From positions 3,968,001-4,032,000 of the forward strand of contig NZ_JAUSYB010000001.1 in the NCBI RefSeq assembly GCF_030816505.1: DNA of 64,000 bases, given 5' to 3'. The DNA is from Microbacterium sp. W4I20 (GTDB lineage: Bacteria; Actinomycetota; Actinomycetes; Actinomycetales; Microbacteriaceae). Every line of letters begins with the position of its first letter. The stretch's first letter is position 1. Positions 15,536 through 32,260 of the stretch are shown in pieces. Both the position numbers and the translations under genes were made by a program. Below the pieces are notes generated by a model, which saw only the letters and a list, made by a program, of their open reading frames with translations, had not been told where the DNA came from and did no database searches.

Positions 15536-15627
15536 CATCTCAGCGTAGAGGGTGCCACCCGTGTGACGGTCTGTGACACCGGATGACCTCGGGCTTCGGT
15601 GCGCTGGCCGCAGGGCGGAGTCGCTTC

Positions 15628-15640
15628 TACGGTGACGGAC
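15628..15640 (+). promoter_or_regulatory. Leaderless promoter, -10 TACGGT
   Basis: TACGGT (15628-15633) is 7 nt before the ATG at 15641. It supports this ATG over an in-frame upstream codon at 15599. Confidence 0.5.
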
Positions 15641-17023
15641 ATGACCGATCCCCTGATCATCGGCGCCATGGTGCGCACTCTCGGCGCCTACCCGTCGGGA
15701 TGGCGGCAGCCGGGCGCGCACCGAGACCCGGCGAACGACGCCGACATCCTCCGCCACATCGCGAAGGAAGGGGAGGACGCCGGTCTGGACTACCTCTTCT
15801 TCGGCGACTGGCTCGCGACGGGACCCGATCTGGAGTTCCGCGATCCCTATCTGCTCGCGCGCATCGATCCGGTCAGCGCCGTGCTCTTCCTCGCCGGGGT
15901 CACCTCGCGCATCGGTCTGATCGCCACGGTGAACACGACCTACGCCGATCCGTACACGACGGCACGGTCGCTGGCCTCCCTCGACGTGCTCACGCGGGGC
16001 CGGGCAGGGATCAACCTCGTCACCGGAGCGGAGCCGCGCGCCGCGGGCAACCACGGCCGGGAGGTGCACGCCGCGAACGAGACGCGCTACGACCGGGCGG
16101 AGGAGTTCGTCACCGCGCTCCGCCGGCTCTGGGACTCGTGGAGCGAGGACGCCTGGATCGCGGATGCCGAGCGCGGCGTGCTCATCGACCCGGCGGGGCT
16201 GCGCCGCACCGACCTGCGCGGCGCGCAGGTGCAGGTCACCGGCCCGCTCAACGTCGCCCGTCCGCCGCAGGGGCAGATCCCGATCGTCCACGCGGGCACG
16301 TCGCCGCGGTCGCGCACGCTCGCCGCCACGGAGGCCGATCTCGCGCTCATCGCCGCACCGAACCTGGCGGATGCGATCGCGACCAGGGCGATCCTGCGGG
16401 ACATCGCCGCGGATGCCGGGCGGTCGCCGGACGCGCTGAAGGTGATCGCGCCCGTGCTGCCGGTCGTGGCAGACACCGACGACGATGCCCGGCGCATCGT
16501 GCAGCGTCTGCTCGCGCTGGTGCCTCTCGCCGAGGGGCACCAGTCGGCGCGCACGGCGTTCCCGACGAATCGGACCGTGGCGGCGCTCGCCGACGCGTTC
16601 GAGGTGGCCGCCGACGACGGGCTGCGCGCCGCCGCCTTCGACGAACCGGTCACGGCCGCCCGTGCCGCGCGGCTGGGCGGGGGCGGCGCGGCGCTCATCG
16701 AGCGGCTGTCGCGCATCGCCGGCGTGGGAGTCGGGAGCGGCGATCCGCTCACCTGGCGCCACCTCGTCGCCGCGCACGCGGTGCCCGCCGCCTTCGTGGT
16801 GGGTGATGCCGGCACGATCGCCGACCACTTCGAGACCTGGCGCGACGAAGGAGCGGCCGACGGCTTCAACGTGCTCTCCGCCTTCCAGCCGGCGCAGTTC
16901 GAGGCCTTCACGCGCATCGCCGCACCCGAGCTGCGCCGCCGCGGCCTGCTGCGGAGCGCGTCGGAGGATGCCGGGACGACGCTCCGCGACCGCCTGCGGG
17001 TTACCTCGTATGTCGACGCGTGA
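15641..17023 (+). CDS. LLM-class flavin monooxygenase (NtaA/SnaA/DszA type)
   Basis: 460 residues, the usual length for the bacterial luciferase-like NtaA/DszA family, which oxidises substrates with FMNH2 supplied by a separate reductase. Seen here: DYLFFGDWLATG near 50, the conserved GRAGINLVTGAEPRAAGNHG around 125-144, ANETRYDRAEEF after it and IVHAGTSPRSRTLAA near 222. It lies 134 bp upstream of the transporter/LLM operon on the same strand, and such enzymes typically release a small acid or sulfite from imported N- or S-organics, so a shared substrate is plausible. A weak 5-bp stem (17024-17040) follows the stop. Confidence 0.88.
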   Translation: MTDPLIIGAMVRTLGAYPSGWRQPGAHRDPANDADILRHIAKEGEDAGLDYLFFGDWLATGPDLEFRDPYLLARIDPVSAVLFLAGVTSRIGLIATVNTTYADPYTTARSLASLDVLTRGRAGINLVTGAEPRAAGNHGREVHAANETRYDRAEEFVTALRRLWDSWSEDAWIADAERGVLIDPAGLRRTDLRGAQVQVTGPLNVARPPQGQIPIVHAGTSPRSRTLAATEADLALIAAPNLADAIATRAILRDIAADAGRSPDALKVIAPVLPVVADTDDDARRIVQRLLALVPLAEGHQSARTAFPTNRTVAALADAFEVAADDGLRAAAFDEPVTAARAARLGGGGAALIERLSRIAGVGVGSGDPLTWRHLVAAHAVPAAFVVGDAGTIADHFETWRDEGAADGFNVLSAFQPAQFEAFTRIAAPELRRRGLLRSASEDAGTTLRDRLRVTSYVDA

Positions 17024-17085
17024 CGAGAGGTTTCGTCTCGCGACCCCGGGTGTCCGTCGCCGCGCGCCGCGGCATCCGCCTTCCC

Positions 17086-17091
17086 TAGCGT
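17086..17091 (+). promoter_or_regulatory. Candidate -10 (TAGCGT) for the 17158-24548 operon
   Basis: TAGCGT lies 66 nt before the ATG at 17158, which would give a leader of about 60 nt ending in CAGGAGG. The -35 is unclear. Confidence 0.35.
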
Positions 17092-17157
17092 GATCCCCAC
17101 CTCGCACTTCCGCACCATCCCTCAGCACAGAGAGCATTCGCAGCCCAGGAGGCCCCC

Positions 17158-18792
17158 ATGAATCGCCGTCACATCCGCGCCGCCGCCGCAGCGGTCCCGC
17201 TCATCCTGGCGACAAGCCTCGCCGCGTGCGCCTCCTCGCCCGCACCCGCGAACGCCCCGGCCGAGGGCGGCGACCCGGTCACCGGGGGCACGCTCACCTA
17301 CCTCGAGCACCAGACGTACACGAACCTGTACCCGCCGCAGGCCGGCTTCTACCCGAACGGCGGCGTCGTCAACAACATCGCCGCCCGCCTGACCTGGCAG
17401 AACCCCGAGACGCTCGAGATCGAGCCGTGGATCGCGGCCGACTGGACCGTGAACGACGACGCCACCGAGTACACGTTCGACCTCAAGCCCGATGTGACAT
17501 TCTCGGACGGCTCGCCCGTGGATGCCGAGGCGGTGGCGAAGAACTTCGACACCTACGGCCTGGGCGACGCCGACCGCGGGCTCACGATCTCCGAGGCCAT
17601 CAACAACTACGCCGGCAGCGACGTGGTCGACGAGGACACGGTCACGTTCCGCTTCACCGCCCCGTCACCCGGCTTCCTGCAGGCGACCTCCACCATCAAC
17701 TCCGGCCTGTTGTCGCCGGAGACGCTCGACGGGACCATCGAGGACTTCGGGGCAGGCAACGCCACCGAGATCATCGGCGCAGGACCCTTCACCGTCAGCG
17801 ACGAGAAGCTCGGCACCGAGTACACCCTCGCCGCCCGCGAGGACTACGCCTGGGCGCCGGAGAGCGCGGAGAACCAGGGTCGCCCCTACGTCGATGCGGT
17901 GCACGTGCTCGTCACACCGGAGGACTCGGTGCGCATCGGCTCGCTGCTCGCCGGCCAGGCCGACTATGTGCGCTACGTGCAGGCCTTCGACGAGGAGCGG
18001 GTCGAGGGGGCCGGCTTCACCCTGTACGCCCCGCAGACCCGGGGCGTGAACAACTCGATCGCGCTGCGGCCGGGAAACCCGCTCCTCGGCGACATCCGCG
18101 TGCGTCAGGCGATCATCGCCGCCGTCGACGCCCAGGAGGTCGTCGACACCCTGTTCACCGACAACTACCCGGTCGCGACCTCGGTGCTCTCCTCCGAGGC
18201 CCTCGGGTACAAGGACGAGTCGGAGCACTACGCGTACGACCCCGACAAGGCCGCCGATCTCCTCGACGAAGCGGGCTGGAAGCCCGGCTCCGACGGCATC
18301 CGCGAGAAGGACGGCGAGCGCCTGGCGATCACGGTCTACGAGGCGAAGCCGCAGCCGCAGTCCACGCAGACGCTCGAACTCGTCGCGCAGCAGCTGGCGA
18401 AGGTCGGCGTCGAGCTCACGGTCAAGCCCGGCGACGCCGGCAGCTACGCCGAGGACACGCGCGATGCCGAGGTGACCGGGTTCTACCACTCGATGGTCGG
18501 CCGTGCGGATCTCGACGTGATCAAGAGCCAGTACTACACGAAGAACCGCGACGTGCTGATCTCCGAGGACGCGGAGCTCGATGCGCTGCTGGATGCCGTG
18601 GCATCGGAGCCGGACGCCGACAAGCGGATCGCCGCCTCGCAGGCCGTGCAGGACTACATCGCCGAGCAGGCGTATGTGATCCCGCTGTTCGAGGAGCCGC
18701 AGGTGTACGGCGCGGCCACCTACGTGCAGGGCGTCGCCTTCGAGTCGGTGGGTCGTCCGACCTTCTCCGGCGTCTGGCTCGCCGACCACTGA
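17158..18792 (+). CDS. Dpp/Opp-type ABC transporter substrate-binding lipoprotein (KPN_01854-like)
   Basis: 544 residues, SBP family 5. Signal peptide with lipobox LAAC (C24), then GGTLTYLEHQTYTNLYPPQAGFY and DLKPDVTFSDGSPVDAEAVA, the canonical block of peptide/nickel/opine-binding proteins. CCAGGAGG precedes the ATG. Gene order (SBP, two permeases, fused ATPase, LLM monooxygenase, two CMD-fold proteins) matches the set NCBIfam names after KPN_01854-KPN_01858 and Avi_7169/7170; this would be the TIGR04028-type binding protein. The ligand is unknown, but adjacent oxygenases suggest a small organic nutrient rather than a peptide. Confidence 0.88.
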   Translation: MNRRHIRAAAAAVPLILATSLAACASSPAPANAPAEGGDPVTGGTLTYLEHQTYTNLYPPQAGFYPNGGVVNNIAARLTWQNPETLEIEPWIAADWTVNDDATEYTFDLKPDVTFSDGSPVDAEAVAKNFDTYGLGDADRGLTISEAINNYAGSDVVDEDTVTFRFTAPSPGFLQATSTINSGLLSPETLDGTIEDFGAGNATEIIGAGPFTVSDEKLGTEYTLAAREDYAWAPESAENQGRPYVDAVHVLVTPEDSVRIGSLLAGQADYVRYVQAFDEERVEGAGFTLYAPQTRGVNNSIALRPGNPLLGDIRVRQAIIAAVDAQEVVDTLFTDNYPVATSVLSSEALGYKDESEHYAYDPDKAADLLDEAGWKPGSDGIREKDGERLAITVYEAKPQPQSTQTLELVAQQLAKVGVELTVKPGDAGSYAEDTRDAEVTGFYHSMVGRADLDVIKSQYYTKNRDVLISEDAELDALLDAVASEPDADKRIAASQAVQDYIAEQAYVIPLFEEPQVYGAATYVQGVAFESVGRPTFSGVWLADH

Positions 18793-18811
18793 TGAGCAAC
18801 CGGGAGCACCG

Positions 18812-19780
18812 ATGACCTTCGTCCTCCGACGAGCCGGGCAGGCCGCGATCGTGCTGATCGCGGCCTTCACGGCCACCTTCTTCCTGCTGCAGCTGCTGCC
18901 CGGCGACGCGATCCTGATCAAGTTCTCCGACCCGAGCCTCGGACTCTCGCCCGAGCAGCTCGACAGCATCCGCGCCAGCTACGGCACGAACCTGCCGTGG
19001 TGGGAGCAGTACGTGCACGCCGCTCTGGGATTCGCCGCCGGCGACTTCGGCTACTCCACGCAGTTCGGCACCCCGGTGCTCACGATGCTCGGTGAGGCGC
19101 TCCCGTCGACGCTGCTGCTCGCGTCGCTCGGGCTGATCGTGGCGCTGCTGCTGGCCGTGCTGATCGCGGGACTCTCGTCGCTCGCCCCGTTCGCGTGGCT
19201 GCGCGACGGGCTGCGCCAGATCCCCGGGCTCTTCGTCGCGGTGCCGGTGTTCTGGCTCGGCATCCTGCTCATCCAGGTCTTCTCCTTCGGGCTCGGCTGG
19301 GTACCGATCGTGGGCGCCGATCCGGTGTCGGGACTCATCCTGCCCGTCCTCACGCTGGCCGTGCCGATCTCGGCCCCGCTCGCCCAGGTGCTCGTCCGCG
19401 CGGTCGACCAGGTGCAGGCGCAGCCGTTCATCACGGTCGTCCGCGCGAAGGGCGCGCCGCCGGTCTGGGTACTCACCCGCTCGGTCGCGAGGAATGCCGC
19501 GGTGCCGACGCTCACGATCGCCGGCGTGCTGTTCGGCGAGCTCGTCGGCGGTGCGGTGGTCACCGAGACCGTCTTCGGCCGCACGGGTGTCGGGCGACTG
19601 ACGGAGCAGGCGGTGGCGAACCAGGACATCCCGGTGCTGCAGGGCGTTGTGCTGCTGTCTGCCCTGGGCTTCGTGCTGGTCAGCTTCGCGGTCGACCTGG
19701 TCACCCCGCTCATCGATCCGCGTCAGCGGCGCGTCGCCAGGGCGACGACCCCGCGCACACTGCAGGAGGTGACGGCATGA
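18812..19780 (+). CDS. ABC transporter permease, DppB type
   Basis: 322 residues, six predicted helices. The N-terminus FVLRRAGQAAIVLIAAF is the DppB/OppB start, with the usual large periplasmic loop (YGTNLPWWEQYVHAALG) after helix 1. The EAA-type loop (VRAKGAPPVWVLTRSVARNA) near 210-229 contacts the ATPase, and AVVTETVFGRTGVGRL is the DppB signature. It follows the binding protein by 19 nt with CGGGAGCACCG as ribosome-binding region; its TGA overlaps the next ATG. Confidence 0.93.
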   Translation: MTFVLRRAGQAAIVLIAAFTATFFLLQLLPGDAILIKFSDPSLGLSPEQLDSIRASYGTNLPWWEQYVHAALGFAAGDFGYSTQFGTPVLTMLGEALPSTLLLASLGLIVALLLAVLIAGLSSLAPFAWLRDGLRQIPGLFVAVPVFWLGILLIQVFSFGLGWVPIVGADPVSGLILPVLTLAVPISAPLAQVLVRAVDQVQAQPFITVVRAKGAPPVWVLTRSVARNAAVPTLTIAGVLFGELVGGAVVTETVFGRTGVGRLTEQAVANQDIPVLQGVVLLSALGFVLVSFAVDLVTPLIDPRQRRVARATTPRTLQEVTA

Positions 19781-20670
19781 CCGTCCCCGTTCTCACCACG
19801 CTCCCCATCCCGGTGGACACAGAACCCGACGCGGATGCTGACGGTGGCGCATCCATCCGCCCACGCCGGCCGCGACGCACGCGCCCGTGGGGCCTGTACG
19901 CGGCGATCGCGGTCGTCGTTCTCGCCGTGCTCTGGGCCGTCATCCCCGGACTGTTCGCGCCGGGGAATCCGCTCACCGGCGCGCCGGCCGACAAGCTGCT
20001 GCCGCCGAGCGCGGCGCACTGGTTCGGCACCGATACCCTGGGCCGCGACCTGTTCGGGCGCGTGGTGCACGGCTCCGTGCACTCGCTGTCGGGCGCGCTC
20101 ATCGCGGTCACGGTCGGCCTCGCCCTCGGCACCCTGATCGGCGCGATCGCGGGAGCCATCGGCGGGATCGTCGACGACGTGCTGATGCGCATCGTCGACG
20201 TCCTGCTGGCGATCCCCGGCCTGTTGCTCTCGCTGTCGGTGATCATCCTGCTCGGGTTCGGCACCGTGAACGCCGCGCTCGCAGTGGGTCTCGGCAGCGT
20301 CGCCGCGTTCGCCCGGCTGATGCGCGCCGAGGTCGCCCGGGTGCGGCGCACCGAGTACGTCGAGGCCGCGTACGGCAGCGGAGCCACGTTCTTCGCCGTC
20401 CTCCGGCGTCACGTGCTGCCCAACTCGCTCACCCCGATCGTGGCGCTCGCCGCCCTGCAGTTCGGCACCGCGATCCTCGCGATCTCGACGCTCGGGTTCC
20501 TCGGCTACGGCGCCCCGCCGCCCACGCCGGAATGGGGGCTGCTGATCGCCGAAGGACGCAACTACATCGGGACCGCGTGGTGGCTCACCGCCCTCCCTGG
20601 CCTCGTCGTGGTGGCGGTCGTGCTCAGCGCCAACCGGATCAGCCACCGACTCGGAAGGAACATCCGATGA
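19777..20670 (+). CDS. ABC transporter permease, DppC type
   Basis: 297 residues. A hydrophilic acidic/basic N-terminal extension of about 45 residues precedes helix 1 (LYAAIAVVVLAVLWAV). WFGTDTLGRDLFGRVVHG is the DppC signature and YGSGATFFAVLRRHVLPNSL the EAA loop; the C-terminal FLGYGAPPPTPEWG is also typical. Overlaps both neighbours by 4 nt (ATGA), so the channel pair is made stoichiometrically. Confidence 0.93.
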   Translation: MTVPVLTTLPIPVDTEPDADADGGASIRPRRPRRTRPWGLYAAIAVVVLAVLWAVIPGLFAPGNPLTGAPADKLLPPSAAHWFGTDTLGRDLFGRVVHGSVHSLSGALIAVTVGLALGTLIGAIAGAIGGIVDDVLMRIVDVLLAIPGLLLSLSVIILLGFGTVNAALAVGLGSVAAFARLMRAEVARVRRTEYVEAAYGSGATFFAVLRRHVLPNSLTPIVALAALQFGTAILAISTLGFLGYGAPPPTPEWGLLIAEGRNYIGTAWWLTALPGLVVVAVVLSANRISHRLGRNIR

Positions 20671-22283
20671 GCGTTCTCACCGCGACCGACCTGCGCATCT
20701 CCTACGCCGGACGCGAGGTCGTGCACGGCGTCTCGTTCGAGATCGCGGAGGGCGAGACCCTGGCTCTGGTGGGGGAGTCAGGGTCGGGCAAGTCCACCAC
20801 CGCGCACGCCCTGCTCGGACTGCTTCCCGCGGGAGGGCGCGTCGACAGCGGCAGCGTGCGACTGGGCGACCTCGACATCTCGGGCTGGTCGGATCGCGCG
20901 CTCCGCGGCATCCGCGGCACGGCGATCGGGCTCGTTCCGCAGGATCCGACGACGTCGCTCGACCCGGTGCGGACCATCGGTGCTCAGGTCGAGGAGATGC
21001 TGCGGCTGCACGGCCACCGGGACCGGCGCTCGCGGCGAGCGCGCGTCATCGAGCTCCTCGACCGCGTCGGCATCGACGACCCCGACCTGCGGGCACGGCA
21101 GTACCCGCACGAGCTCTCCGGCGGCATGCGGCAGCGCGTGCTGATCGCGAGCGCGATCGCACTCGGCCCGCGGCTGCTCATCGCGGACGAGCCGACGAGC
21201 GCGTTGGACGCGACCGTGCAGCGCAAGGTGCTCGACCTGCTCGACGAGCTGCGTCGCGAGGAGGGCACCAGCATCCTCCTGGTGACCCACGACCTCGGGG
21301 TCGCGGCCGACCGCGCCGAGCGCCTGGTGGTGCTGAAGGACGGCCGGATCGTGGAGCAGGGTCCGAGCGAGACCGTGCTCGCGTCGCCGTCCGACGGCTA
21401 CACGAAGCAGCTGCTGGCGGATGCTCCGGCCTTCGCGACCGGCTTCCGTCGCCCCGACGCGCCCCCGTTCCTTCGCGATGCCGCGGCCGTCGCTGCGGAG
21501 AACCCGTACGCCATCGTGGCGGAGGGCCTGGTCAAGCAGTTCCGGGTGGCCGGGCGCGAGCCCTTCCGGGCGGTCGACGACGTCTCGTTCCGGGTGCGGC
21601 GCGGCACCACGCACGCGCTGGTGGGGGAGTCCGGCTCCGGGAAGACCACCACGGCCCGGCTCGTCACCCGCTTCCAGCAGCCGGATGCCGGCACGATCGA
21701 GGTCGCCGGTGCCGAGGTCACCCACGCGTCCCGCGAGCAGCTGCGCGCCCTTCGCCGGCGCATCCAGCTGGTCTACCAGAACCCGTTCGCCTCGCTCGAT
21801 CCGCGCCAGTCGATCGTCGACATCGTCGCGGAGCCGCTGACGAACTTCCGCGTCGGCTCCCGGGGTGAGCGCCGGGAGCGGGCGCTCGCGCTCATCGACC
21901 GGGTTTCGCTTCCCGCCGACGTCGCACGCCGCACCCCGCAGGAGCTGTCCGGCGGGCAGAGGCAGCGGGTGGCGATCGCGCGCGCCCTGGCAATCGATCC
22001 GGAGATCGTGGTGCTCGACGAGGCGGTCTCCGCGCTCGACGTGACGGTGCAGGCGCGCATCCTCGAGCTCCTCACCTCGCTCCAGGCCGAGCTCGGGCTC
22101 ACCTACCTGTTCATCTCGCACGACCTCGCGGTCGTCCGGCGCATCAGCCACACCGTCTCGGTGATGCGCCGCGGCCGGATCGTCGAGGAGGGCCTGACGG
22201 AGGAGCTGTTCCACGACCCGCAACACGACTACACCCGGGAGCTGCTCGCCGCGGTTCCCGGACGGACGGAGATTCCTGCATGA
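20667..22283 (+). CDS. ABC transporter ATPase, fused DppD-DppF type
   Basis: 538 residues with two complete nucleotide-binding domains. First: Walker A GESGSGKSTT, signature LSGGMRQRV, Walker B LIADEPTSALD. Second (from about 285): Walker A GESGSGKTTT, signature LSGGQRQRV, Walker B VLDEAVSALD. Fusion of the two ATPases into one chain is common in actinobacterial Dpp systems. Both sites look competent. It overlaps DppC and the LLM gene by 4 nt each, so transport and the monooxygenase are expressed as one unit. Confidence 0.93.
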   Translation: MSVLTATDLRISYAGREVVHGVSFEIAEGETLALVGESGSGKSTTAHALLGLLPAGGRVDSGSVRLGDLDISGWSDRALRGIRGTAIGLVPQDPTTSLDPVRTIGAQVEEMLRLHGHRDRRSRRARVIELLDRVGIDDPDLRARQYPHELSGGMRQRVLIASAIALGPRLLIADEPTSALDATVQRKVLDLLDELRREEGTSILLVTHDLGVAADRAERLVVLKDGRIVEQGPSETVLASPSDGYTKQLLADAPAFATGFRRPDAPPFLRDAAAVAAENPYAIVAEGLVKQFRVAGREPFRAVDDVSFRVRRGTTHALVGESGSGKTTTARLVTRFQQPDAGTIEVAGAEVTHASREQLRALRRRIQLVYQNPFASLDPRQSIVDIVAEPLTNFRVGSRGERRERALALIDRVSLPADVARRTPQELSGGQRQRVAIARALAIDPEIVVLDEAVSALDVTVQARILELLTSLQAELGLTYLFISHDLAVVRRISHTVSVMRRGRIVEEGLTEELFHDPQHDYTRELLAAVPGRTEIPA

Positions 22284-23323
22284 CCGCCCTCACCGTCGCC
22301 TTCTTCACCCGGCTGCTCGACGACGCCTCGCCCGCGGAGCGGTACGCACTCGCCACCGCCCAGATCCAGCAGGCGGAGCGCCACGGCATCGGCCGGGCCT
22401 GGGTCGCGCAGCACCACTTCCGGGCGGCCGAGGGCGGTCTGCCGTCTCCGCTGGTGTTCCTGGCGAGCGTCGCGGCCCGGACCACGAGCATCCGGCTCGG
22501 CACCGGTGTGATCACGCTTCCGCTGGAGGATCCGGTGCGCGTCGCCGAGGATGCGGTCGTGGCCGATCTGCTCGCCGACGGCCGCCTCGATCTCGGACTC
22601 GGCAGCGGCGGCACCCCGTCGTCGTTCGTGCCGTTCGGTGAGGACGTGCGCGACAAGGCGCCAACGTACGACCGCAAGCTCCGGCTGCTGCTCGATGCGC
22701 TCGCCGGCCGCGACGTCGGAGCCGAGAACACGCTCTATCCGGATGCCGGCACGCTCGCCGACCGCATCTGGCAGGCGACTTTCTCGGCGCCGGGCGGACA
22801 CCGGGCCGGCGTCCACGGTCACGGTCTGCTGCTCTCCCGCACGCAACCCCGGCGGGAGGACGCACTGCATGCACCGCTCTCGGCGCTGCAGGATCCGATC
22901 ATCGACGCCTACCTCGAGGCGCTTCCCGCCGGTGTCGCGCCGCGGATCACCGCCTCGCGCACGGTGTTCGTCGCCGATCACCGTGCCGAGGCGCTGCGCT
23001 TCGCCGAGGTCGGGTTGCGGCGGGCGGCCGAAGGCTTCCGGCGTCAGGGGCAGACGATCCCCGGTGACAGCATCGACGAGCTCATCGCGGCTCTCGACAC
23101 GCACCTGGGCACGCCGGAGGAAGTGGCCGAGTCGCTCGCTGCCGATGCCACCCTCGCCCGCGCGACGGAGGTCGCGTTCCAGGTGCACTCGGTCGATGCC
23201 CCGCACGAACACGTGCTGCGGTCGATCGAGCTCTTCGCCACCGAGGTCGCGCCGGCGCTCGGCTACGCACTCACGGACACCACCGACATCGACACCACCG
23301 ACACCATCAAGGAGAAGGCATGA
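22280..23323 (+). CDS. Putative FMN-dependent luciferase-like monooxygenase (KPN_01858-like)
   Basis: 347 residues, LLM fold: QQAERHGIGRAWVAQHHF near 30-47, SIRLGTGVITLPLEDPVRVAEDAVVADLLADGRLDLGLGSG typical of the flavin-binding barrel. The sequence agrees with the TIGR04027 group found only beside this transporter type. Such enzymes need FMNH2 from a reductase; the nearest in this window is at 31691. The C-terminal end carries a short Thr-Asp repeat (TDTTDIDTTDT). Overlaps genes on both sides by 4 nt. Predicted to oxidise the imported compound. Confidence 0.88.
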   Translation: MTALTVAFFTRLLDDASPAERYALATAQIQQAERHGIGRAWVAQHHFRAAEGGLPSPLVFLASVAARTTSIRLGTGVITLPLEDPVRVAEDAVVADLLADGRLDLGLGSGGTPSSFVPFGEDVRDKAPTYDRKLRLLLDALAGRDVGAENTLYPDAGTLADRIWQATFSAPGGHRAGVHGHGLLLSRTQPRREDALHAPLSALQDPIIDAYLEALPAGVAPRITASRTVFVADHRAEALRFAEVGLRRAAEGFRRQGQTIPGDSIDELIAALDTHLGTPEEVAESLAADATLARATEVAFQVHSVDAPHEHVLRSIELFATEVAPALGYALTDTTDIDTTDTIKEKA

Positions 23324-23946
23324 CCACCGACATCGTCGATCAGCTCGCGGGGGTGACGCCTGAGCTCGACGCGCTCCGGCGCCGCCGCCCGGTGACCAGG
23401 GATCAGCTGCAGGCGAGCTTCGACGCGCTGTTCCAGCCGGTCTCGGTCGAGCACGTGTCGCAGACGGAGCGCGAACTCATCGCCGCCTTCGCCACGCGGC
23501 TCGCTGGCAGTGCCGACCCGACCGGCACCTTCTACGCCGATCGGGCGCTCGCCGCCGATCCGTCTCGTGCCGCTGTCGTGCTGTCCGAGGCGTCGGATGC
23601 CGCGGTCGAGGGCCCGTTCGGCTCCTACACCGAGCTCGGCCTGCAGGACGAGAGCACCGCGGGCGAGCGCTACGTGCCGTCGGATGCCGCGATCGAGGCA
23701 CTGGGCGCTCGGCTCGCCGCCGCGCTCGCGCACACCCACCTCCTGGTGTTCCGTCCGCGTGAGGCGTCGGCCGCCGACATCACCGCGCTGCTCGACGCCG
23801 GATGGTCGGCGGACGGCATCATCACGCTGTCGCAGCTGGTCTCCTTCCTGGCGTTCCAGCAGCGGGTCATCACCGGGCTGCGGACGCTCGCCGCCGCCGG
23901 GTTCGTGCCGGCGACTCAGACCGATTCCGAGGAGGAAGCCGCATGA
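23320..23946 (+). CDS. CMD domain protein, Avi_7170-like, without cysteines
   Basis: 208 residues. The C-terminal half (SAADITALLDAGWSADGI then ITLSQLVSFLAFQQRVITGL) has the helical pattern of carboxymuconolactone decarboxylase/AhpD folds, but the protein contains no cysteine and so cannot use the AhpD CxxC redox centre. It fits the TIGR04029 group. It is always, as far as I recall, partnered with the CxxC-bearing protein encoded next, which suggests a hetero-oligomer with one catalytic and one structural subunit. ATGA overlaps on both sides. Confidence 0.83.
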   Translation: MTTDIVDQLAGVTPELDALRRRRPVTRDQLQASFDALFQPVSVEHVSQTERELIAAFATRLAGSADPTGTFYADRALAADPSRAAVVLSEASDAAVEGPFGSYTELGLQDESTAGERYVPSDAAIEALGARLAAALAHTHLLVFRPREASAADITALLDAGWSADGIITLSQLVSFLAFQQRVITGLRTLAAAGFVPATQTDSEEEAA

Positions 23947-24548
23947 CCACCGATCAGACCGTGCTCAGGCACGATGCCCCGCACCCGCACGCCTTCACGC
24001 GCGGCGAGGTCGGCTGGCTGCCGCATCTCCCTCCGCTACCGGAGGACGAGCTCACGGAGCGCCATTACGACGGACTCGTCGATGCGGCCCGCGCGAAGAA
24101 CGACTACTTCCGGCTGCTGGCGCGCGACCCTGAGATCCTCAAGGCGCGCACTCTGGTCGACAAGGACATCTTCTACAACGTCGCCGAGGGGCTGCCGCGT
24201 GCCGAGCGCGAGCTCGCCGCGACGGCCGCCTCCCGCCGCAACGGGTGCGTGTTCTGCGCGTCGGTGCACTCGCGGTTCGCGGCGCATCACGGCAAGCGCG
24301 TCGACGACGTGGACCGGCTGCTCGACGAGGGGGTCGATGCCGACCTCGGTGAGCGCTGGAACGCGGTCGTCGCGGCATCCGTCGCTCTCACCGATACGCC
24401 CAGCGCCTTCGGCGAGGGCGAGATCGCGCGGCTGCGTGCGGCCGGCCTCGACGATCTGGAGATCGCCGATGTCATCCACGGTGCGGCGTTCTTCAACTGG
24501 GCGAACCGGCTCATGCTCTCGATCGGACGGCCAGTGGTGCCGGCCTGA
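23943..24548 (+). CDS. Alkylhydroperoxidase domain protein, Avi_7169-like
   Basis: 201 residues. The AhpD-type motif is complete: E90 in ERELAAT, then C102 and C105 in NGCVFCASVH with H109. The C-terminal DDLEIADVIHGAAFFNWANRLM is typical of this peroxidase-like family (TIGR04030). The predicted role is thiol-based reduction of a peroxide or of an oxidised intermediate from the LLM reaction. Last gene of the operon, 16 nt from the convergent quinone reductase, with no obvious terminator between. Confidence 0.87.
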   Translation: MTTDQTVLRHDAPHPHAFTRGEVGWLPHLPPLPEDELTERHYDGLVDAARAKNDYFRLLARDPEILKARTLVDKDIFYNVAEGLPRAERELAATAASRRNGCVFCASVHSRFAAHHGKRVDDVDRLLDEGVDADLGERWNAVVAASVALTDTPSAFGEGEIARLRAAGLDDLEIADVIHGAAFFNWANRLMLSIGRPVVPA

Positions 24549-24564: not shown

Positions 24565-25509
24565 TTACGGAACGAGGATGATCTTGCCCGAGGCGGCGCC
24601 GGACTCCACGAGCTCGTGCGCCTGCGCCGCTTCAGCAAGGGGGAGTTCGGGTCCGATCTCGATCGTGAAGTCGCCGGACGCGAGCAGCTCGATCGTCTTC
24701 GGGAGTGCTTCCGCGCGAAGCGCGAGTTCCTCCTTCGTCAGTGGCTTCGGCGATCCTCCGGAGAACGCGCGGATGCCGAACGACGCGGCATCCGGTCCGC
24801 GGACGATCGTCGCGATGCGGTCCCGGTCCTCGACCAGGGCGAGTGAGGTCTCGATCGCCTCGTCGGTGCCCGCGCAGTCGAGCACGACGGTGACGGGCGC
24901 GGGGGCCGCCTCTCGCACGCGCTCCAGGAGGCCCTCCTCGTAGGAGATCGGGATCGCGCCGAGCTCTCGCAGCTGCTCGTGGCGGGCCGGGCTCGCGGTG
25001 GCGATCACGGTCGCACCCCAGGCCACCGCGAACTGCACGGCCGCCTGGCCGACGGCTCCGGAACCGCCGTGCACGAGCAGCACATCGCCGGCGGTCACCC
25101 CGATCGACCGCAGCGCCTGGTACGCGGTGCCGGCGGGGATGCCGATCGCGGCGCCCTCGGCGGCGGTGACCGCGTCGGGGAGCGCGGCCAGCTTCTCGAC
25201 CGGAACGACGAGAGCGGAGGCGTACGTGCCGAGCGTGTCGCGGACGGCCACCCGATCGCCGACGGCGAACTCGTCGACGCCCTCGCCGAGCGTCTCCACC
25301 ACGCCCGCGCCGTCGAAGCCGACCGGTCGCGGCTCGGTGATGTCGGGGGACGGGCGCTTCCGGGAGCGCAGCTTCGCATCGATCGGATTCACGCCCGCCG
25401 CCTCGATGCGCACGACGACCTCGCCGCGCGCGGCGACGGGATCGGGAACCTCGATCTCGTGCAGGACTGCGGGGGAACCGAACTCGGTGTAGACGATCGC
25501 GCGTGCCAT
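24565..25509 (-). CDS. NADP-dependent quinone reductase-like (zinc-free MDR) protein
   Basis: 314 residues. N-terminal GroES-like domain (FGSPAVLHEIEVPDP, then GVNPIDAKLR) and a Rossmann domain with VHGGSGAVGQAAVQFA near 148-163. It lacks the structural zinc cysteines and the catalytic zinc ligands, so it belongs to the quinone oxidoreductase (QOR) side of the medium-chain superfamily, likely reducing quinones or enones with NADPH. Separated from hrpA by 20 bp but with its own -10 element, so probably a single-gene unit. Confidence 0.9.
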   Translation of the reverse strand: MARAIVYTEFGSPAVLHEIEVPDPVAARGEVVVRIEAAGVNPIDAKLRSRKRPSPDITEPRPVGFDGAGVVETLGEGVDEFAVGDRVAVRDTLGTYASALVVPVEKLAALPDAVTAAEGAAIGIPAGTAYQALRSIGVTAGDVLLVHGGSGAVGQAAVQFAVAWGATVIATASPARHEQLRELGAIPISYEEGLLERVREAAPAPVTVVLDCAGTDEAIETSLALVEDRDRIATIVRGPDAASFGIRAFSGGSPKPLTKEELALRAEALPKTIELLASGDFTIEIGPELPLAEAAQAHELVESGAASGKIILVP

Positions 25510-29545: not shown

Positions 29546-31614
<2,069 letters not shown>

Positions 31615-31634: not shown

Positions 31635-31669
31635 GACGCCCCGTGTCGCCGACCGCGACACGGGGCGTC
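31635..31669 (+). terminator. Perfect 15-bp hairpin after the aldo/keto reductase
   Basis: 31635-31649 (GACGCCCCGTGTCGC) pairs without mismatch with 31655-31669 around the loop CGACC. No clear T-run follows; the next -10 starts 8 nt beyond. Confidence 0.7.
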
Positions 31670-31677
31670 GTCGTGGG

Positions 31678-31690
31678 TACCGTCGAGGTC
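31678..31690 (+). promoter_or_regulatory. Leaderless promoter, -10 TACCGT
   Basis: TACCGT (31678-31683) is 7 nt before the ATG at 31691. Confidence 0.5.
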
Positions 31691-32260
31691 ATGACAGCTC
31701 CGTTCCGCGTCGTCGCCGTGTCGGGTTCCCTGCACGAGCCGAGCAAGACGACCGCCCTCGTCCGCGCGATCACGGCCGCCATCGGAGAGCGGGCGCCGAT
31801 CGAGGCGCAGCTCATCGAGCTCACGCAGATCGGTCCCGGCCTCGCCGGAGCGCTGCGCCGCGACCAGCTGCCGCCCGAGGTGGAGGAGCAGCTCCGCGCG
31901 ATCGAGACCGCCGACCTCCTCATCGTCGGCAGCCCCGTCTACCGCGCCTCGTTCACGGGTCTGTTCAAGCACCTCTTCGACTTCGTCGGCCAGTACGACC
32001 TCGTCGGAAAGCCCGTGCTGCTGGCGGCCACCGGCGGGGGCGAGCGTCATGCGCTGATCATCGAGCACCAGCTGCGTCCGCTGTTCGGCTTCTTCCAGGC
32101 GCTGACGCTCCCGCTCGGCGTCTACGCGAGCGACACCGACTTCGACAAGTACGAGATCACGTCCGAGATCCTGCAGTCGCGCATCGCGCTCGCCGCAGAG
32201 CGTGCTCTTCCGCTCGTCGGCTACGCGGCCTCACGACCGGTCGAGCTGCTCGTCGGCTGA
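31691..32260 (+). CDS. NAD(P)H-dependent FMN reductase (MsuE/SsuE family)
   Basis: 189 residues, flavodoxin-like fold. SGSLHEPSKTTALV near 10-23 binds the FMN phosphate, and GSPVYRASFTGLFKHLFD near 79-96 is the signature of the SsuE/MsuE reductases. The product, FMNH2, is the cofactor of LLM monooxygenases such as those at 15641 and 22280, so it may serve them in trans although it is 7 kb away and separately transcribed. Single-gene unit between a hairpin and the next leaderless promoter. Confidence 0.88.
   Translation: MTAPFRVVAVSGSLHEPSKTTALVRAITAAIGERAPIEAQLIELTQIGPGLAGALRRDQLPPEVEEQLRAIETADLLIVGSPVYRASFTGLFKHLFDFVGQYDLVGKPVLLAATGGGERHALIIEHQLRPLFGFFQALTLPLGVYASDTDFDKYEITSEILQSRIALAAERALPLVGYAASRPVELLVG

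Follow-up and report, generated by a model that had tools for sequence, protein, structure and literature searches.

A seven-gene importer and monooxygenase operon of Microbacterium sp. W4I20 as a probable sulfur-acquisition system

We describe here an operon of seven genes in a stretch of 64,000 nucleotides (hereafter the window; contig NZ_JAUSYB010000001.1, positions 3,968,001 to 4,032,000) from the 4.31-Mb genome of Microbacterium sp. W4I20. The genes, all located on the forward strand within 17158-24548, encode a Dpp-type importer, a luciferase-like monooxygenase (LLM), a CMD-type protein and an AhpD-like protein, and we consider it very probable, judging from sequence comparison, that the operon is a sulfur-acquisition system that would be induced by sulfur limitation. 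Three lines point in this direction: the operon proteins are specifically depleted in Cys and Met, the repeat found upstream is common to sulfur genes, and sulfur genes occur among the neighbors of some of the related loci. Our confidence in any given substrate is far lower.

Results

All seven open reading frames (ORFs) were found where a preliminary description of this DNA had placed them (Table 1). Consecutive genes overlap by 4 nt at five of the six junctions, the remaining one, between the substrate-binding protein (SBP) and the first permease, being a 19-nt gap. That description had also proposed that the proteins belong to families TIGR04027-TIGR04030, and a search with profile hidden Markov models bore this out, four proteins scoring above the curated cut-offs. 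The importer is of the Dpp/Nik type in all its parts, with an SBP_bac_5 binding protein, two BPD_transp_1-type permeases and ATP-binding cassette (ABC) ATPases. As described, the CMD protein is free of cysteine and the AhpD-like protein has a CxxC motif; the former has no Pfam match at E 0.001 and a weak similarity to AhpD (E 1.7e-5 to 6k40). The closest matching proteins, likewise from Microbacterium, share about 90% identity.

In a scan of one genome per species, 593 stretches yielded at least 292 confirmed relatives; the 80 best loci, together with seven plasmid regions, make up a set of 87 loci from actinobacteria and proteobacteria. The claimed co-occurrence of the families holds, with all seven genes in 65 of the 87, and because they stand together in the same order in 64, it cannot be due to chance. 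In 11 of the 65 seven-gene loci, all from Enterobacterales, the CMD and AhpD-like matches fall within a single ORF, suggesting cooperation between the two proteins. Three operon genes are present in ten loci, among them loci of alphaproteobacteria and Variovorax that consist of the LLM-CMD-AhpD trio. Carriers of the four families include Klebsiella, Pantoea, Erwinia, Rhizobium, Ensifer, Variovorax and Microbacterium, many bacteria from soil and plants having operons of this kind, and 124 plasmid records hold relatives, mostly from Pantoea, Rhizobium, Ensifer, Erwinia and Sinorhizobium. TIGR04027 scores above its cut-off in 79 of 198 sampled Microbacterium genomes. TIGR04028 does so in one of 296 genomes drawn across the phylum, namely that of Microbacterium sp. 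W4I20; as a presence test this search was rejected, 260 of the 296 genomes giving a match that in all but one was below the cut-off.

The eight window proteins encoded by the operon and by the NtaA-type monooxygenase gene upstream of it contain 13 Cys and Met in 2931 amino acids (0.44%), as compared to 1.95% for the 341 genes called in a 400-kb sample of this genome; the lowest of 155 comparable background runs, at 0.84%, is one that holds the genome's ssu-like operon. For the relatives, composition was determined in 65 of the 87 loci, namely those that have five or more operon genes and a called flank of 1000 amino acids or more. Of the others, seven had too short a flank and 15 too few operon genes; genes outside the operon were called by a simple caller of our own, which performed poorly on locus L253. 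The ratio of Cys+Met content between operon and flank was below 1 in 65 of 65 loci, so that the poverty in these residues looked for in a sulfur-starvation system is seen throughout, and it was below 0.5 in 59 (median 0.24). Depletion is 3.5- to 5-fold for Cys (median log2 −2.31) and Met (−1.83), the only residues that are depleted in every locus; next comes Glu (median log2 −0.18; 46 of 65 loci). Family membership does not account for this: 30 paralogues, the top-scoring ones per genome out of 113 SBP_bac_5 matches in Rahnella, Sinorhizobium, Microvirga and Devosia genomes, contain 0.97-4.29% Cys+Met, as against 0.00-0.37% in the four operon SBPs.

One could instead regard the poverty in Cys and Met as an effect of composition or cost, imposed by the genome or by high expression. 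Microbacterium proteins are indeed low in both residues overall, as the background value indicates, and unrelated genes at 0% also exist in that background. However, Trp, Phe, Tyr and His are hardly depleted (median log2 −0.17 to −0.01), the depletion holds in ten Enterobacterales loci (ratio 0.13-0.46), and the family-matched SBP paralogues differ. The residue-by-residue pattern largely contradicts this explanation, to which we give almost no credence.

Upstream of both the SBP gene and the NtaA-type gene stand tandem RTKWC units at a spacing of exactly 10 bp, followed before the SBP gene by a CCTANCGTG box, which was the top word of an open scan (16 of 37 foreground versus 0 of 82 background upstream regions). 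The first units of the array before the SBP gene overlap the end of the NtaA-type gene, and the array is present in relatives. In Microbacterium and its kin, at least two units at 10 bp occur in 25 of 37 regions upstream of these genes and in 1 of 82 controls, and at least three in 15 of 37 and 0 of 82; at any other period between 7 and 14 the number was 0-5 of the 37. As controls we took the upstream regions of those flanking genes whose Cys+Met exceeds 1.3%, leaving the other flanking genes out, and because the 37 regions are related and the unit was picked by eye on them, these counts are a description rather than an independent test.

Such a test was provided by the metQ genes of other Microbacterium. 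A match was present in 43 of 59 genomes (45 matches in all). Among the 30 loci with the best matches, each in a different genome, the array score is at least 15 at period 10 in 22 and at periods 8, 9, 11 and 12 in none. Within the W4I20 genome, the score is 15.2 before metQNI, 9 kb beyond the window, and, at loci picked by family, 16.2 between a second Dpp operon and a divergently oriented second NtaA gene and 15.7 at a cluster of ABC, SfnB-like and NtaA genes divergent from siroheme genes; a score of at least 15 was also reached in two of 206 sampled upstream regions, those of a DUF308 gene and of the ssu-like operon. Out of 2000 shuffles, none did equally well or better at the second Dpp operon, the ssu-like operon or the DUF308 region, as at the two window arrays, while 13 did so at metQ and 6 at the SfnB-like cluster; two control regions gave 1059 and 172. 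The repeat, which may act as an operator, is thus common to other sulfur genes, namely metQNI and the ssu-like operon and more weakly the SfnB-like cluster. It was not matched to any described regulator, no literature search for the motif having been made.

The strict three-unit pattern, drawn from the same gene set, has a single genome match, before the NtaA-type gene, and its reversed control has none; when one mismatch was allowed, the pattern matched 50 times and its reversed control 27 times, and a scored, upstream-only scan was therefore used instead. A joined pattern of TGAC and CCTANCGTG was dropped, having one genome site as compared to 10 matches of the reversed pattern.

Several further loci may be noted. 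In L160 (G000:C1:1674000-1690000), the second Dpp-type importer and an NtaA-family monooxygenase diverge from either side of a 10-bp array, and Cys+Met is low, at about 0.8% over four genes. In L254:2042-9218, siroheme genes (CbiX, CobA) are divergent from an ABC importer, an SfnB-like oxidoreductase and an NtaA-family monooxygenase, with an array-like element upstream. An O-acetylhomoserine sulfhydrylase-like gene overlaps an NtaA-like monooxygenase gene in L255:5164-7769, both at 0.46% Cys+Met and with no clear array. In L141 a strong 10-bp array at 16340 precedes 16533-17060, whose product, a DUF308 protein of membrane type, lacks Cys altogether and has no Met beyond the start.

The 948 proteins flanking the related loci fall into 581 clusters, and 10 representatives, chosen for low Cys/Met, were identified; the neighborhood maps exclude the Ensifer loci. 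Recurrent Cys/Met-poor neighbors are NtaA/DmoA-type monooxygenases (17 proteins from 7 genera, by hand-assigned genus labels), together with 3-mercaptopyruvate-sulfurtransferase-like, MsuE-like FMN (flavin mononucleotide) reductase, SsuD-like monooxygenase, OsmC-like and glyoxalase-fold proteins, although the sulfurtransferase, SsuD-like and MsuE-like representatives score below their model cut-offs. Cys+Met is not low in the two clusters found most widely (0 and 1), at about 2.8% on average; a member of cluster 0 is an ABC ATPase and one of cluster 4 a permease. L061, L063 and L064 have a sulfurtransferase gene first, then NtaA, then the seven genes and finally an FMN reductase gene. Among the plasmid records, 13 of the 124 were examined as annotated regions, and five of these 13 have sulfur-linked neighbors: a tauA-type importer in one region, a methionine importer in one, an acetyltransferase-LLM-amidohydrolase set, which in our view resembles yxe, in two, and a CysB-family regulator with a sulfurtransferase beside one trio-only locus.

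As to the enzymes themselves, AhpD-type thiol redox chemistry uses a CxxC motif with an upstream Glu and a downstream His, and the AhpD-like protein has this predicted signature, E90, C102, C105 and H109 being invariant in 28 of 28 aligned sequences. In the LLM, Arg11, His45-His46, Ser186, Arg191, Arg222 and Arg227 are kept in 35 of 35 members, which agrees with a positive pocket reported for PDB 8K74; the substrate is probably anionic. The preliminary description had held the function of these families to be unreported. This is outdated, since the 8K74 protein, PCX02514 of Klebsiella sp. PCX, which belongs to TIGR04027, was reported in 2024 to be a poly(acrylic acid) (PAA) monooxygenase (PMC11354265).

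The LLM might accordingly be a PAA monooxygenase, and the operon one for the use of a polymer or xenobiotic as carbon source. The TIGR04027 profile matches 8K74 over its length with 530 bits, NADPH-dependent chain shortening and effects of mutations are described for the protein (PMC11354265), and among the residues concerned, all 35 members have the equivalents of R10 and S186, 34 have that of R187, and R or K stands at the equivalent of R125 in all 35. However, His253, one of five proposed residues, is His in only 6 of the 35. The reported kcat is 0.00214 per s, FMN and FMNH2 are inactive, unlike with other luciferase-fold monooxygenases, and the action of luciferases on long chains was the reason for choosing the gene (PMC11354265). 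A Dpp importer would moreover be ill-suited to a long polymer, and both the depletion of Cys and Met and the repeat common to metQ would be left unexplained. So slow an activity explains neither the importer nor the regulation; we take it to be a side activity and consider a PAA operon very improbable.

The binding protein raises another alternative, in which a metal/opine or peptide importer, accompanied by accessory redox enzymes, serves NikA/CntA/DppA-like nutrition rather than sulfur supply. Among PDB entries, the relatives of this protein are NikA-type, nickel/metallophore-type and DppA proteins, and KPN_01858 was higher in iron-limited Klebsiella; TauC, of a taurine transporter, rose in the same experiment, so that a sulfur link fits the data no worse than a metal link (PMC7194016). 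The 30 SBP paralogues tested are not comparably depleted in Cys and Met, and a repeat common to metQ and an ssu-like operon speaks against metal or peptide nutrition as well, leaving it improbable in our estimation.

The NtaA/DszA-type gene just upstream had been described as a neighbor on the same strand. Its family stands (TIGR03860), and it is no chance neighbor, given the common upstream repeat and an equal poverty in Cys and Met. Its nearest solved structures are YtnJ/MoxC and DszA, YtnJ being, we presume, identical to CmoJ. In most loci outside Microbacterium and its kin, no relative of this gene was found near the operon. Downstream, an MsuE-type reductase gene (31643..32260) may be linked to the operon as a source of FMNH2; no array was found before its presumed transcription unit (upstream score 12.2 at 29573), and a related FMN reductase gene lies directly 3' of the operon in L061, L063, L064 and L071. 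A convergent quinone-reductase-like gene (24565-25509, 0.32% Cys+Met) adjoins the operon, as it also does in L054-L058, L060 and L062.

Table 1. Positions in the window of the operon, its putative regulatory elements and associated genes
Feature	Position	Strand	Evidence and remarks
Three tandem 10-bp operator-like units (GTGAC/ATGAC) before NtaA-type gene	15563..15592	+	score 18.0, 0/2000 shuffles
NtaA/DmoA-family FMN monooxygenase	15632..17023 (start 15632 or 15599)	+	TIGR03860 336.4 bits, cut-off 279.7; 0 Cys, 2 Met after start
Tandem 10-bp operator-like array before SBP gene	17000..17059	+	score 17.4, 0/2000 shuffles; other periods <=12.9
Conserved promoter-like box CCTAGCGTG (CCTANCGTG)	17084..17092	+	open word scan
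SBP lipoprotein (TIGR04028, family 5)	17158..18792	+	787 bits, cut-off 468.5; 1 Cys, 1 Met after start
Dpp/Nik-type permease 1	18812..19780	+	profile search
Dpp/Nik-type permease 2	19777..20670	+	PF00528
Fused double ABC ATPase	20667..22283	+	two ABC_tran stretches
TIGR04027 LLM	22280..23323	+	508.6 bits, cut-off 412.9; no Cys, no Met after start
TIGR04029 CMD-type protein	23320..23946	+	160.1 bits, cut-off 100.75; no Cys, no Met after start
TIGR04030 AhpD-like CxxC protein	23943..24548	+	269 bits, cut-off 233.15
MsuE-type FMN reductase, candidate FMNH2 source	31643..32260	+	TIGR03566 259 bits, cut-off 212.5; 7 kb downstream

Discussion

The import-and-oxidize logic that had been read from the gene content holds, and the substrate, thought of before as an N-, S- or ether-containing compound, is narrowed by Cys/Met depletion and the upstream repeat to the sulfur part of that range. 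Most likely, an anionic organosulfur compound is imported under sulfur shortage and then subjected to FMNH2-dependent oxygenation and C-S cleavage. One could envision a regulator at the tandem 10-bp repeats under whose control both the NtaA-type monooxygenase and the seven-gene operon stand, as two separate transcription units. Uptake would fall to the lipoprotein and the Dpp-type importer. The compound may resemble a thioether or a sulfoxide and might be a modified cysteine or peptide, and one or both of the putatively FMNH2-dependent luciferase-fold monooxygenases, fed by the MsuE-type reductase, would oxygenate it so that the C-S bond breaks. The reactive product would be left to the CMD/AhpD-like pair, which might, for instance, reduce a sulfenic acid or a peroxide, and the freed sulfur would enter Cys and Met synthesis.

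Host metabolism may bear on which product is released. A search for the PAPS-reductase family, the control of which matched in 13 of 14 genomes, gave no match in this genome at E 1e-5. The single nitrite/sulfite reductase (NIR_SIR) match is an 859-amino-acid protein with NirB-like domains, so that Microbacterium sp. W4I20 appears, from these two family searches, to lack the usual route of sulfate reduction. Should the host be unable to reduce either sulfate or sulfite, little would be gained from a monooxygenase that sets sulfite free, and one that yields a thiol would be favored.

Several known systems invite comparison. The importers of the ytm/cmo and scm (yxe) operons are of the amino-acid type, in contrast to the Dpp type found here, and the window operon has the CMD/AhpD-like pair instead of an N-acetyltransferase or deacetylase. 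Its LLM, a TIGR04027 protein, also falls short of TIGR03558 (76.9 versus a cut-off of 166.95), the MsnO8 group in which CmoO is presumably placed. The likeness to ytm/cmo lies in the NtaA-type gene, nearest to YtnJ among solved structures, and in the chemistry, since S-alkylcysteine salvage by ytm/cmo of B. subtilis (CmoO with CmoJ/YtnJ) and S-(2-succino)cysteine (2SC) salvage by scm cleave C-S bonds of cysteine derivatives with flavin monooxygenases (PMC10863075, PMC12757645), as proposed here for the window operon. The ssu, msu and sfn operons for sulfonates and sulfones differ from that of the window in importer class, and the TIGR04027 protein has no SsuD or SfnG match at E<=0.001; nor does either window monooxygenase belong to SsuD/MsuD (TIGR03565), with which the LLM has no listed match and the NtaA-type protein scores 46.4 versus a cut-off of 518.2. 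Those operons combine an FMNH2-dependent LLM with an MsuE-type reductase, a content that the window genes would resemble, as they do in low Cys/Met and in their probable sulfur-regulon setting. GsiABCD is a peptide-type ABC importer of the glutathione type, and to our knowledge neither it nor NWMN_0143-0146 of S. aureus is accompanied by monooxygenase or CMD genes, unlike the window operon. The S. aureus importer, likewise of the glutathione type, resembles our operon as a peptide-type ABC importer and in belonging, as the operon would, to a sulfur regulon, that of CymR (PMC5480029). PCX02514 has an LLM of the same family in common with the operon but was studied alone, as a PAA monooxygenase, and the words operon and sulfur are absent from the text of PMC11354265. 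In passages of papers on LLMs in connection with sulfur starvation or sulfur source, no mention of the operon was found.

The comparison with ytm/cmo bears on the role of the CMD/AhpD-like pair. In that pathway, CmoO is a sulfoxidase and CmoJ a C-S monooxygenase, and the resulting sulfenic acid needs reduction (PMC10863075). One might speculate that the pair reduces such a product, as an alternative to detoxification. A new route of C-S cleavage could then be imagined, in which the TIGR04027 enzyme, alone or with the NtaA-type one, oxygenates an imported thioether or sulfoxide to a sulfenic acid that a complex of the CMD and AhpD-like proteins reduces to the thiol, with an AhpD-fold sulfenic-acid reductase placed under a sulfur regulon with a tandem 10-bp operator; we put this forward tentatively and think it rather doubtful in this particular form.

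A number of observations weigh against sulfur acquisition as the role of the operon. The sole published activity of a TIGR04027 protein is on PAA and without flavin (PMC11354265). Three other Dpp-type operons of the same genome have about 0.8, 1.2 and 2.2% Cys+Met, so that the contrast is modest within Microbacterium alone, although the first of them also carries the 10-bp repeat. Six trio-only loci (L086, L098, L111, L114, L128 and L130) are weakly depleted (1.7-2.4%), as compared to 0.8-1.1% in four Variovorax trio loci, and the lone LLM of Agromyces L070 is not depleted at all (ratio 1.15); the trio may thus serve elsewhere too. The metQ region of W4I20 itself is the one matched by 13 of 2000 shuffles, the SfnB-like cluster is a weak case because period 9 scores 15.9 there, and no array was found at three of the six NtaA-family loci of the genome. 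Arrays also stand before genes without an evident sulfur role, the DUF308 gene of the random sample and, at pattern-picked sites, GNAT-like and DUF1684 genes; 13 stretches at picked sites and one beside the second Dpp operon gave three arrays of at least 16.4 before a gene, none evidently of sulfur metabolism and one of them the DUF308 site. Finally, eight of the 13 annotated plasmid regions are without an annotated sulfur neighbor, and the CysB-family regulator adjoins a trio-only locus rather than a full operon.

That the operon serves sulfur acquisition remains very probable to us with these points taken into account, and four families hitherto named after locus tags thereby gain a role that can be tested by growth on organic sulfur. 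The search for a substrate narrows from any N-, S- or ether compound to a screen of sulfur sources, and the physiological meaning of the published PAA activity is put in question. For Microbacterium, the tandem repeat is proposed as the operator of a sulfur regulon.

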